Assembly: GCA_026416715.1 (NCBI GenBank) | Contig: JAOAEQ010000022.1 | Coordinates: 1-59,022, forward strand | DNA length: 59,022 nucleotides | Source of the DNA: a bacterium | GTDB taxonomy: Bacteria > UBP4 > UBA4092 > JAOAEQ01 | Direction of reading: 5' to 3' | Shown: positions 27,681 to 52,451 of the stretch, piece by piece | Layout of the letters: the number at the start of each line of letters is the position of its first letter | How positions within the stretch are numbered: the first letter of the stretch is position 1 | Program-made: the position numbers and the translations under genes | The notes under the pieces: generated by a model | The model's database searches: none | Told to the model about the DNA's origin: nothing | What the model saw: only the letters and a program-made list of their open reading frames with translations

Positions 27681-28430
27681 TTATTTATGACGATTAATCA
27701 AGCTGGCAAAACAACCGGCACCGAAACCGTTGTCAATATTCATTACCGCAACATTACTCGAACAACTATTAAGCATCGCTAACAATGCTGCTAGGCCACC
27801 AAAACTTGCACCATACCCAATACTTGTTGGAACCGCTATAACTGGACAATTAACTAATCCGCCAACTACACTCGCTAATGCTCCTTCCATCCCAGCAATA
27901 ACGATAATCACATTCGCTGCAAAAAGGATATCTTTTTTATCTAATAACCGGTGTAATCCAGCGACTCCGACATCATAGACCCGTTCAACTTTATTTCCAA
28001 AAAGATCTGCAGTAACCGCAGCTTCTTCTGCAACAGGGATGTCAGATGTTCCGGCGCAAACTATAGCGATTATACCAGAGGAGAGTTTAACTTGCTTCTG
28101 TTTAATTGCGATTGTTCTAGCTAACTCATTATATTCAGATTTTGGGAATTTTTTCTTTACAATTTTAGCAACATCTTTAGCAACTCGGGTGGCTAATACA
28201 TTCTGTCCACTCGCAACAAACCGACTGATAATTCGCAATATCTGGTCAGACGTTTTCCCTTGGCAAAATATTACTTCTGGAAACCCTTGCCGAAGATGTC
28301 GATGATGATCGAGTTTCGCAAATCCCAAATCTTCATAGGGTAGGGTGCGAAGTTTTTCAATAGCTTTTTCGACACTTAATTTTCCGGATTTGATTTGATT
28401 TAATATAACCTTCAAATTATCAGTATGCAT
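27681..28430 (-). CDS. larB: Nickel-pincer cofactor synthase LarB
   Basis: LarB carboxylates and hydrolyses nicotinic acid adenine dinucleotide to make the pyridinium biscarboxylate precursor of the nickel-pincer cofactor. The 249-aa protein has the short N-terminal helical part followed by FAKLDHHRHLRQGFPEVIFCQGKT and a PurE-like domain with VCAGTSDIPVAEEAAVTA, VAGLHRL, IVIAGMEGALASVVGGL and PVIAVPTSIGYG. An extended -10 (TGCTATAAT) sits 8 nt before the ATG and no clear Shine-Dalgarno is seen, so its mRNA may be leaderless. The larC gene follows, making a minimal larBC operon. Confidence 0.94.
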   Translation of the reverse strand: MHTDNLKVILNQIKSGKLSVEKAIEKLRTLPYEDLGFAKLDHHRHLRQGFPEVIFCQGKTSDQILRIISRFVASGQNVLATRVAKDVAKIVKKKFPKSEYNELARTIAIKQKQVKLSSGIIAIVCAGTSDIPVAEEAAVTADLFGNKVERVYDVGVAGLHRLLDKKDILFAANVIIVIAGMEGALASVVGGLVNCPVIAVPTSIGYGASFGGLAALLAMLNSCSSNVAVMNIDNGFGAGCFASLINRHK

Positions 28431-28438
28431 ACCTAGAA

Positions 28439-28447
28439 ATTATAGCA
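28439..28447 (-). promoter_or_regulatory. Extended -10 promoter of larB
   Basis: Read on the minus strand, TGCTATAAT is a perfect TATAAT box with an upstream TG. It ends 8 nt before the larB ATG, so transcription would start within a base or two of the start codon. No -35 is visible at 17-18 nt. Confidence 0.55.
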
Positions 28448-28543
28448 TAGAAATTGAACTATCGATATGGTTCACGTTAATAAGAAACGCATAAGCAATG
28501 TTTGAGCGTAGTTTATTATACCTAAGGTATTAAATTGGATTCA

Positions 28544-28717
28544 TCAACCTTCTGCAAACTTCCTGTTACTCCTGAATTGATGTTCGAACTTATCTGAGCC
28601 ATTCATAGCTAGGTTGTACATCAGCAACCCCGTATTGTAATATCCATTAGTCACGATTGACCTATCGCGAATTACGTGTATCCGGTGCTGAGTAAGCTGT
28701 AACCATTGGAATTCCAT
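28544..28717 (-). CDS. Small unknown ORF with strong ribosome-binding site (57 aa)
   Basis: This short frame has a textbook ribosome-binding site: GGAAGGAG followed by six A and the ATG, stronger than that of almost any gene in the window. The predicted peptide is 57 aa, starts MEFQWLQLTQHRIHVIRDRS and ends NGSDKFEHQFRSNRKFAEG. It is rich in Gln, Asn, Arg and Tyr, has no Cys, no membrane segment and no motif I recognise. Stop codons TGATGA end it. Codon choice differs from its neighbours (three AGG arginines, CTG and GGG used), which could mean recent transfer or that the frame is not coding. It is read towards larB, whose own promoter lies about 100 bp on. Confidence 0.4.
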   Translation of the reverse strand: MEFQWLQLTQHRIHVIRDRSIVTNGYYNTGLLMYNLAMNGSDKFEHQFRSNRKFAEG

Positions 28718-28963
28718 TTTTTTCTCCTTCCGTTTCTACCATTTCATTTCATTATCTCCATTAGAGAGATTCAAAGTTTTACGTTTTATCCATTTAAAAT
28801 TAGCTTTAAAACTCACAGTATAACCCTATGCACCTTCCCGAATTTAAGTTCGGGGTTATAGAATATTTTAGCGCTTGGTATTAATCCGGGGTTGTTTGCA
28901 TTTAAGAATAGATTGAAAATTGGATTCAGGTTCTGTTGTATAAGCATAAAAATTGTTTTCCTT
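28718..28963. other. Divergent intergenic region with competing hairpins
   Basis: No gene seen. Between the small ORF (minus) and sod (plus) lie two overlapping inverted repeats: CCCGAA (28837-28842) with TTCGGG (28849-28854), and TATAACCC (28819-28826) with GGGTTATA (28853-28860). The two share G residues and cannot both be full length, so they could form alternative structures in an RNA leading to the small ORF. Confidence 0.45.
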
Positions 28964-29041: not shown

Positions 29042-29620
29042 ATGGCTTACACTGCCAAAGATTATACAAAACTTATCGGGATAGCAGGGTTTAGCGAATC
29101 TTTGCTGAAAAATCATTTTACATTATATCAAGGGTATGTAACCAATACCAATAAAGTGTTAGATGCGCTTGATGCGTTAACAAAAGAAGGGAAGAGCGGG
29201 ACTCCAGAATTTGCGGAATTAAAACGACGGTTTGGTTGGGAGTTTAATGGAATGCGATTGCATGAATTGTATTTCGAAAATCTTGGTGGGAAAACTCCGA
29301 TTAATAAAGAGGGTAGTTTCGCCAAGAAACTAACGGAACAATTTGGCAGTTATGAAAATTGGGAGAAAGATTTTAAAGCGACTGGAACGATGCGCGGTAT
29401 CGGCTGGGTAGTTCTGTATCAGGATTTAATGGACGGGAAACTAATCAATGTCTGGATTAATGAACATGATGTTGCCCATTTAGCTGGGTGCAATCCACTG
29501 CTGATAATGGATGTTTTCGAGCATGCGTTTCTACTTGATTATGGGTTAAAACGAGCGGAATACATTGAAGCTTTCTTCAGAAATATTGATTGGAGAGCGG
29601 TTGAAGCAAGAATAAAATAA
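29042..29620 (+). CDS. sod: Fe/Mn superoxide dismutase, divergent type
   Basis: The enzyme removes superoxide in the cytoplasm. The 192-aa protein has the predicted metal ligands H25 (LLKNHFTLYQ), H74 (MRLHELYFENLGG), D157 and H161 (MDVFEHAFLLDYGLKRAEY). It departs from the classical form. The usual HHDKHHQTYV block is NHFTLYQGYV, so the second-sphere His30 of E. coli MnSOD is Leu or Tyr and the His-to-Tyr34 spacing is one residue shorter. The DVWEH motif is DVFEH. I believe this belongs to a subgroup seen in other anaerobes. The start is very clear: AAGGAGG ends 8 nt before the ATG. A good promoter precedes it and it stands alone, as a stress gene might. Metal choice (Fe or Mn) is not decided. 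Confidence 0.88.
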   Translation: MAYTAKDYTKLIGIAGFSESLLKNHFTLYQGYVTNTNKVLDALDALTKEGKSGTPEFAELKRRFGWEFNGMRLHELYFENLGGKTPINKEGSFAKKLTEQFGSYENWEKDFKATGTMRGIGWVVLYQDLMDGKLINVWINEHDVAHLAGCNPLLIMDVFEHAFLLDYGLKRAEYIEAFFRNIDWRAVEARIK

Positions 29621-49083: not shown

Positions 49084-49935
49084 ATGGGAGTGGGTACAAT
49101 TGATTTCCTTTCTATTTATAGCCCACATAGATTTAATTTTGAAGAATTTTGTTCAGCCGTAAAATATCGAAGAGGGAAATTAATTGAAATAGGATGCGGA
49201 GCGGGAGTATTTTTATACAATATAGCAAAATATATTCCCGATTTAGAATTATATGGCTGCGATATTAGCAATGCAGCCATCAAGGCAGCAAAGGATACAA
49301 CTCCAAATACTAATATCCATTATTTTGTTGGCGATGGTTCAAATTTACCAATCAATAATAATTCTTTTGACATAGTTATTCTGATGGATGTTCTTGAACA
49401 TATTTCCGATGTTAATAAGCTGTTGAATGAATGTAACCGTATTTTAAAAATTCAGGGAATGTTACATGCCAATATTCCCTGTGAAAAGAATAGGTTTACG
49501 ATATGGTGGTTCATGGAAAAAATAGGTTTGGGAAAAAATCTGACACGAAAACATTTAGGGCATATCCAGAAATTAACTATAGATGAAGTTATCCAACTTA
49601 TCAATTGTGCTGGATTTGAAGTACAATCGATTTCATATTCAAGACATTTATTTGGACAACTTGTTGCGTTATTCGGTTTCTTTCTCCCCAAAGAAATACT
49701 AACCAGACTATTTGGAAAAACTACTACTTTAGCTTTATCAGATTATGCAATAAACACAACGAAAGTTCAAAATCAATCATGGATATTAAAAGGTTTACTT
49801 TTATTTCGAGAAATATGGTTTTTTATTTTTAAACTATTTGCAGCAATTTCATACTTTGAATCGGTGATATTGAGACGGAAACGTTTTTTGGCTACCGATA
49901 TGCATATAACATGTATTAAAAAAGGAGATGTGTAG
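49084..49935 (+). CDS. Class I SAM-dependent methyltransferase
   Basis: The 283-aa protein has KLIEIGCGAGVFLYNIAKYIPDLELYGCDIS (motifs I and II), FDIVILMDVLEHISDVNKLLNECNRIL and IPCEKNRFTIWWFMEK. The second half has hydrophobic stretches (LFGQLVALFGFFLPKEIL; LLFREIWFFIFKLFAAISYF) suggesting membrane contact, so the substrate may be lipid-linked. I chose the ATG at 49084 because the longer frame from 48985 would overlap the upstream methyltransferase by 74 bp. It ends at the start of the YfhO gene. Confidence 0.78.
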   Translation: MGVGTIDFLSIYSPHRFNFEEFCSAVKYRRGKLIEIGCGAGVFLYNIAKYIPDLELYGCDISNAAIKAAKDTTPNTNIHYFVGDGSNLPINNNSFDIVILMDVLEHISDVNKLLNECNRILKIQGMLHANIPCEKNRFTIWWFMEKIGLGKNLTRKHLGHIQKLTIDEVIQLINCAGFEVQSISYSRHLFGQLVALFGFFLPKEILTRLFGKTTTLALSDYAINTTKVQNQSWILKGLLLFREIWFFIFKLFAAISYFESVILRRKRFLATDMHITCIKKGDV

Positions 49936-49937
49936 TG

Positions 49938-52451
49938 ATGGATAAGGAAAAATGGGGTAAGAAGAAAATTGCAGATAGGCAGAGTCGTAAACAAGAAATA
50001 CCTGACCGAGTCAACTCAATACTTCCGTATAAAACTGATTTATGGTTGCTATTAATAATGCTTATCATTGTTATAGTTTTATTTCACGGGATATTTTCAT
50101 TTGACCAAACAATTGTTAGTAGTGATTTTGGCGTTTGGTCAGCGAAATATTTTGCTAATCAAATCCGACAGTTTACTTGGCAGAAATGGTTACCCTATAA
50201 TCACGCTGGCGGTGATTTTAGTGGACAGCCAATCTATCCGACGCATTTATTATTATTTTTTATGCCCCCTTCATTTTGGCTTGGTTTCAACTATGCACTC
50301 CATGTGTTTTTATTGGGTGTATTTATGTATTGCTGGATGCGATATCTGAAATTAAGTCGAACCGCGAGTTTCTTCGCAGCAATTAGTATGATGTTAACTA
50401 ACCATGTCGTAACGCTTGTTTACCCCGGGCATATGGGAAAATTCGATACGTTCGCTTGGACTCCATTGACATTTCTTTTTCTTACCAAAGGAGTAAAAGA
50501 GAAGAAAATTCAATCGTTTATACTAGCAGGTTGTTTTTTCGGATTGCAGTTTCTTGGTGTTGAAGTTCAGGTAGCATTTTATTTAGGAATATGTCTATTC
50601 ATTTATCTAATCTATCTGTTAGTTAGCGAATTTAAACAAAGTAAACAAATTAAACCTTTACTGAAATCAGGTGCTGGGTTCGTGATTATGGCTGTAGTAA
50701 CCGCTATATTCGCTGCGCAGGTTATTTTCCATTTTTTTGGATTTCTACAGTCTGCCGATGTTGCGTGGAAGAAAAAAAATCAGGAAAATCAAGCTGCTGT
50801 AACCGCAACGGTTGAACCTAAATCGGAAGATGAAACGCAGAGCGGATATGAGTTCAATATTTCCTGGTCGTTTCCACCTGAAGAGACCTTAACTTTTATT
50901 ATGCGGCGACCATTTGGGGATTATAGCGGCGCTGGCGGAGATAAAGAATATTGGGGTCGGTTAGGTAGTAAACAGATGACCTTGAAACTTACTGACGATT
51001 ATCTTGGAATAATCCCGGTAATTTTTGCGTTTCTAGCACTATGGTTCGTCCGGAAACAAGGTATATGGTTTTGGGTTATCCTCGGGCTAATAGCGTTGAT
51101 TTTTTCATTTGGTGGTTTTACGCCTATTTATAAATATGTTCTACTAATTCCCGGAATGAATAAATTTCGTGATCCGAACAAGTGGATTTTCATTGTAACG
51201 TTCTGTTTTGCTACTGTGACCGGATATGGAATGCATTGGTATGCGAATTATATCAGTCAACCCAAAGCGAAAAATCAGTTACCGGATAAAAAAGTTAGCT
51301 ATTTTACCACAACGATTATTATTCTGTGTATTGTGTGCGTGCTAGTCATGCTTATAGGAATTTTCTTTAAGGAAGCAATTGTGTCAAACATTACCGCAAA
51401 ACTTGCAGCACACGGTTCATCGCTCGATTATGCTACCGTATTAACTCGAGCAGAAAATGTAATTTCAAGTTGGACTAGAATGACTGTTTTGTTAATTATT
51501 GGGGTAGGTTTAGTTATCGCTGGGTTTCAGTTTCAATTGAAAGATAAAAAAGAATATCCACGATATTTATTGATAGCGATTATTACCATTACTGCATGCG
51601 ATTTAGGATTCAGCGCATCTCGGTTCATTCAATACATTGATACGGAACAACAATATCAGCTCGACCCGATTACTGCTTTTTTGAAAAGTGATAACTCATA
51701 TTATCGGGTTAAACTATATTCTCGGCATCCGTTCCTAGAGAATCTCTCCAATTTCAAATTTAAATATTATGAAATTCCAGCGTGGGATATTGCAGCTTCA
51801 CGACTACCGACATTGTATAATAATTTCTTACTGCACATTGCCGATAAAAATTTCGGAACATTTTTAGATGTTGGGAATGTCAAATATATGCTCGGTGCAC
51901 AACCATTATCTCATCCAGCATTTCGCCAGGTATATACGGTCGGGAATTTCTACGTATATGAGTATCTAGGATTTGTCCCACGGGTATTTACCATCAGCAG
52001 CTATGAATTGATTCCGGATGAAAATAAAGTGATCGAACGAATGCAAAGTCCGACGTTTAATGTCCGTAATGGGGTTATTCTAGAATCTGACCCCGGATTT
52101 AGTTCTTCAACGATATCGGATTATAATCCAAATGGTGCGCAAATTGTTGAGTATACTCCTAATCGAGTCACGGTGAAGTGTGAGGTAAAAACACCAAGTT
52201 TATTAGTGTTCCATGATTATTATACACCGGATTGGAAAGCATATCTAAACGGAAAACCAGTGAAAATATTAAAAACTAATTATCTAATGAGGTCAGTAGC
52301 TGTTCCTGCCGGAAGTAACACGGTAGTTTTCAAATATGAACCTAATATGATAGGATTATATATCAGTGGATTATGCTTGATACTCTTTGCAGGATATTTG
52401 GGATATCTTGGTTGGAACTGGTGGCAATACCAAAAGGTAAAATCTATTTAA
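49938..52451 (+). CDS. YfhO family membrane protein (GT-C-like)
   Basis: The roughly 837-aa polytopic membrane protein has about a dozen predicted membrane segments, the first near 32-52 (WLLLIMLIIVIVLFHGIFSF). It has large hydrophilic loops, including one with VAWKKKNQENQAAVTATVEP. A beta-rich C-terminal extracytoplasmic domain (VTVKCEVKTPSLLVFHDYYT, DWKAYLNGKPVKIL) precedes the last membrane segment. This matches YfhO, which in Gram-positives glycosylates lipoteichoic acid with polyprenol-linked sugars outside the membrane. AAAGGAGA lies 9 nt before the ATG; a GTG at 49935 overlaps the upstream stop and is the alternative. The next gene makes polyprenol-phosphate sugar, a fitting partner. 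Confidence 0.85.
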   Translation: MDKEKWGKKKIADRQSRKQEIPDRVNSILPYKTDLWLLLIMLIIVIVLFHGIFSFDQTIVSSDFGVWSAKYFANQIRQFTWQKWLPYNHAGGDFSGQPIYPTHLLLFFMPPSFWLGFNYALHVFLLGVFMYCWMRYLKLSRTASFFAAISMMLTNHVVTLVYPGHMGKFDTFAWTPLTFLFLTKGVKEKKIQSFILAGCFFGLQFLGVEVQVAFYLGICLFIYLIYLLVSEFKQSKQIKPLLKSGAGFVIMAVVTAIFAAQVIFHFFGFLQSADVAWKKKNQENQAAVTATVEPKSEDETQSGYEFNISWSFPPEETLTFIMRRPFGDYSGAGGDKEYWGRLGSKQMTLKLTDDYLGIIPVIFAFLALWFVRKQGIWFWVILGLIALIFSFGGFTPIYKYVLLIPGMNKFRDPNKWIFIVTFCFATVTGYGMHWYANYISQPKAKNQLPDKKVSYFTTTIIILCIVCVLVMLIGIFFKEAIVSNITAKLAAHGSSLDYATVLTRAENVISSWTRMTVLLIIGVGLVIAGFQFQLKDKKEYPRYLLIAIITITACDLGFSASRFIQYIDTEQQYQLDPITAFLKSDNSYYRVKLYSRHPFLENLSNFKFKYYEIPAWDIAASRLPTLYNNFLLHIADKNFGTFLDVGNVKYMLGAQPLSHPAFRQVYTVGNFYVYEYLGFVPRVFTISSYELIPDENKVIERMQSPTFNVRNGVILESDPGFSSSTISDYNPNGAQIVEYTPNRVTVKCEVKTPSLLVFHDYYTPDWKAYLNGKPVKILKTNYLMRSVAVPAGSNTVVFKYEPNMIGLYISGLCLILFAGYLGYLGWNWWQYQKVKSI

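Follow-up and report, generated by a model that had tools for sequence, protein, structure and literature searches.

A 57-codon open frame behind a strong Shine–Dalgarno-like sequence upstream of larB: chance or very young frame, or orphan small gene

The gap between sod and larB

In the window (the whole stretch of 59,022 nucleotides that was analysed), sod (29042..29620, plus strand; Pfam Sod_Fe_C, 93.3 bits) and larB (27681..28430, minus strand; Pfam AIRC, 51.9 bits) are divergently oriented and separated by a gap of 611 bp. The name LarB was taken from the preliminary description and from the position of the gene before larC, the gene that follows it and matches Pfam Ni_insertion with 492 bits. 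The gap contains a frame of 57 codons, running from ATG to TGA on the minus strand (28544..28717), on the same strand as larB, which is the next gene downstream and is separated from it by 113 nt. Read along that strand, the order is GGAAGGAG (28724..28731), six A, ATG, the 57 codons and a tandem stop TGA TGA, the second in-frame TGA of which lies at 28541-28543. The preliminary description had given the position, strand, length, start region and double stop of the frame exactly.

Two further features were noted in the same gap. Just before the 57-codon frame lies a 44-codon ATG frame (28813-28947, minus strand), with AAAGGA 11 nt upstream of its ATG; its codon score of -0.202 is also non-coding-like, and a family search returned nothing for it but an NCBIfam match at chance level (E 0.015), well short of the cut-off. 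Positions 28837-28854 form a short perfect inverted repeat, CCCGAA-CTTAAA-TTCGGG, which could be an operator or a product of chance.

The ribosome-binding site and its chance expectation

We calculated the energy of pairing to the anti-Shine–Dalgarno (anti-SD) sequence using its canonical form, which was assumed because a search of the assembly for a 16S gene gave no match (the same search was positive in 9 of 14 control genomes). On this assumption, the frame has a start codon with a ribosome-binding site, as expected of a gene. Its pairing energy of -12.4 kcal/mol is stronger than that of all 47 genes listed in the window, the runners-up being sod (-11.1 kcal/mol) and the gene at 49938 (-10.0 kcal/mol), and stronger than that of 252 of the 267 genes in a 447-kb sample of the genome. 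Among the window's 2100 other ATGs, three equal or exceed it. The preliminary description had ranked the site as the strongest outside sod. By duplex energy the site surpasses even sod, but by the longest perfect match (6 nt) it falls behind both sod and the gene at 49935/49938 (7 nt each).

Exact copies of GGAAGGAG placed 4-8 nt ahead of an ATG occur seven times in the genome, against none for the reversed control. Among the six copies elsewhere, two resemble gene starts, one encoding a small membrane-type protein and the second a product that we take to be ketol-acid reductoisomerase; the remaining four seem to lie inside genes.

The earlier statement that most genes here lack a Shine–Dalgarno (SD) sequence holds for the window, where an SD sequence is missing from 34 of 40 called genes, but not as a rule for the genome. 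In the 447-kb sample, of which the window is part, an SD match of at least 5 nt precedes 61 of 267 genes, compared to 2.2% of random positions, and the matches peak sharply at -18 to -9. Gene starts in the sample were set by a script as the first ATG near the beginning of the longest frame, with genes shorter than 600 bases left out; some of these starts are wrong, and SD use is therefore probably underestimated. The use of SD sequences differs by region: the window has matches of at least 5 nt at 3 of its 40 called genes, the stretch C1 at 31 of 113. The window has many genes that, judged by reading, are glycosyltransferase-like. Leaderless genes were considered as a general cause of missing SD sequences and rejected, as there was no enrichment of -10 boxes directly before 258 gene starts of the sample.

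How often would a frame of this kind arise by chance? We counted ATG frames of at least 57 codons with a pairing energy of -12.4 kcal/mol or better in Markov-randomised gaps, and obtained a mean of 0.015 in the gaps of the window (7.6 kb) and of 0.17 in those of the sample (55 kb). Extrapolation from the randomised gaps gives about one such chance frame per whole genome, a figure to be read with the post hoc choice of the frame in mind. The real sample contains six such intergenic frames, including the one studied here. Of the other five, three match Pfam families above the cut-offs, one falls just below, and one has no match but a positive codon score. Per 447 kb, about 0.17 chance frames thus compare with about five real genes. 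Among out-of-frame and antisense frames inside genes, none qualifies at -12.4 kcal/mol and five do at -10. The combination of SD strength and length, which the 57-codon frame shares with frames that are otherwise gene-like, is the best evidence that it is a gene. For a short frame in this genome, a strong SD sequence ahead of it is a good indicator of a gene; it is insufficient where codon use disagrees and no relative can test conservation.

Codon use and the search for relatives

On the window's own scale, the codon score of the frame is -0.14 bits per codon. Ranked against 286 gene pieces, this is the 0.3rd percentile; against 79 intergenic pieces it is the 49th, and against 1317 wrong-frame pieces the 39th. 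The codon use thus does not resemble that of the genome's genes, and is like that of intergenic DNA. On the scale of the sample the score is -0.186. The scores of the five out-of-frame or antisense frames span this value (-0.164 to -0.344); the remaining five intergenic frames, whose SD sequences are equally strong, all score higher (0.015 to 0.152). The third-position G+C content is 51% versus 30%, and the overall G+C content 42% versus 37%; the earlier remark that codon choice is unlike that of the neighbours is borne out. The difference in G+C between codon positions within the frame is not significant (p 0.11). Between 28540 and 28719, G+C climbs locally to about 0.40-0.43, compared with 0.34 for the gap.

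We also scored the frame with foreign codon models. Those built from genes of 37-46% G+C classed it as non-coding (likelihood ratios 0 and 0.06, from only 9 and 12 training genes), and those from genes of 45-60% G+C gave ratios of 0.71 and 0.64.

No relative of the peptide was found at E 0.001 in any collection searched (40 genomes, GTDB species contigs, viral contigs, phages, plasmids and PDB). The 40 comparison genomes gave chance-level matches alone (E 0.117 or worse); there were none in PDB, among the plasmids or in the viral and GTDB species contigs, and no family in the family libraries matched. Searching 104 larB-type loci with tblastn returned a best E of 0.056. A Synechococcus phage protein annotated as methylamine utilization (28% identity, E 0.8) and a PHROG match pointing in the same direction (E 0.21) were both judged to be chance. 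Finding no relative argues only weakly against a gene, as the phylum is represented in the collections by a single other genome. The LarB of that genome is 58% identical to the one in the window; the nearest in the GTDB contigs, in a Poribacteria record, is 65% identical, and in most relatives the alignments begin at residue 1.

Readings of the frame

The codon score favours a chance frame, and the ribosome-binding site favours translation. We consider a chance or very young frame with no selected function to be the best reading, with a probability of roughly 0.53 and a modest lead over a lineage-specific or foreign small gene. The probabilities attached to the four readings discussed here, in figures or in words, are judgements and not computed values. 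In a chance or very young frame, a strong SD-like polypurine tract in the 611-bp gap would be followed, by coincidence, by 57 codons free of stops. Were the minus strand of the gap transcribed, ribosomes could well initiate there, and the product would be a peptide without selected function, that is, a chance product or a very young ‘proto-gene'. We infer an absence of selection and function from the non-coding-like codon score, the lack of any relative or family, and the expectation of about one such frame per genome. Against chance stand the mere 0.015 frames expected in the window's gaps and the gene-like appearance of the five comparable intergenic frames.

The latter observations point instead to a lineage-specific or horizontally acquired gene for a 57-residue protein, with its own strong SD sequence and independent of larB, a tentative reading to which we give appreciably less than an even chance. 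Its atypical codons would then be explained by a donor with a G+C content of about 50%, or by the gene having arisen recently. This is consistent with the raised overall and third-position G+C and with an SD sequence among the strongest in this part of the genome; the codon models of 45-60% G+C leave room for it, but those of 37-46% G+C speak against it, as does the failure of every collection searched to return a relative. A foreign origin is possible, with no match to back it. Single-sequence AlphaFold2 predicted two helices, with a mean pLDDT of 80 in the best and 50 in the worst of five models and a pTM of 0.38; obtained for this frame alone, the prediction can be set on either side. Hardly any real genes look as non-coding as the 57-codon frame. 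If one in twenty to one in fifty true short genes were so atypical, chance and gene would be nearly even.

The local rise in G+C might alternatively mark a non-coding RNA, or what is left of a mobile element or larger gene, with the frame contained in it by accident. We regard this as very improbable: folding did not exceed that of shuffled sequences (z-scores of 0.58 on one strand and -0.05 on the other), Rfam gave no match at the cut-off and thus no known family (a CRISPR-repeat match, at E 1.6, was far below it), the tRNA scan was negative here, and the genome holds no second copy beyond chance short matches.

Least probable of the four is a leader peptide whose translation regulates the downstream larB-larC genes via attenuation or coupling. 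Leader peptides of attenuated operons are encoded by short SD-bearing frames upstream of a gene and on its strand, and the 57-codon frame, 113 nt ahead of larB, is like them in all these respects. It differs from them in lacking a terminator or attenuator and any conservation beside larB, and we saw no run of regulatory codons in its peptide. On the minus strand, the region from 28543 to 28431 contains no terminator-like site and, with no sign of alternative hairpins, folds no better than shuffles (z 0.48). Of 104 larB loci, 95 had enough upstream sequence to be scanned for a frame of 35-90 codons with a good SD sequence lying wholly upstream; three had one, and the three peptides are dissimilar. 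The frame thus does not recur beside larB in distant genomes, though a young leader would be compatible with its lack in these 95 loci, which belong to distant relatives. In addition, an extended -10-like site, TGCTATAAT (28439..28447, minus strand), read from the sequence 8 nt ahead of the larB ATG, would, if used, place the start of the larB transcript downstream of the frame. This is only suggestive; TGCTATAAT was not among the sites listed by a sigma-70 scan, and, as noted above, the sample shows no excess of -10 boxes ahead of its gene starts. Of the three readings that the preliminary description had offered, the leader peptide is therefore unlikely, given the missing terminator, the 3 of 95 loci and the 113-nt gap, but the chance frame and the transferred or orphan gene are both more probable.

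As it stands, the finding is of little importance. If the frame is translated, it adds one more orphan small protein from a poorly sampled phylum; if it is a gene, that protein is a new one. Passages in two Ribo-seq reports describe unannotated intergenic small frames in E. coli O157:H7 (PMC5597208) and in M. tuberculosis (PMC9094748). As far as those passages go, the 57-codon frame is like these in being short, intergenic, without known relatives and easily missed by an annotation pipeline, but unlike them it is known from sequence alone.

The surroundings of larB

Among the matches listed, publications on leader peptides that appear under ‘larB' mostly concern, in the portions available, lasso or other modified peptides; lar there denotes the lariatin cluster, a homonym.

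Among the 17 inspected larB-type loci with Poribacteria in their title, a small protein is encoded directly upstream of larB in L046, L047, L048, L052, L054, L055, L059 and L060; it is partial in L050, and similar ones occur in L088 and L097. The protein begins with a hydrophobic segment, ends in a charged helical tail and is presumably YtxH-like. The window has no such gene directly upstream of larB.

Two LarA-type genes and one LarE-type gene above the cut-off are found on other contigs of the same genome, G000 (C5:130397-130975, C3:5556-6143 and C6:80520-81296). The nickel-pincer pathway thus looks complete but scattered, with the LarA and LarE genes away from larB-larC.
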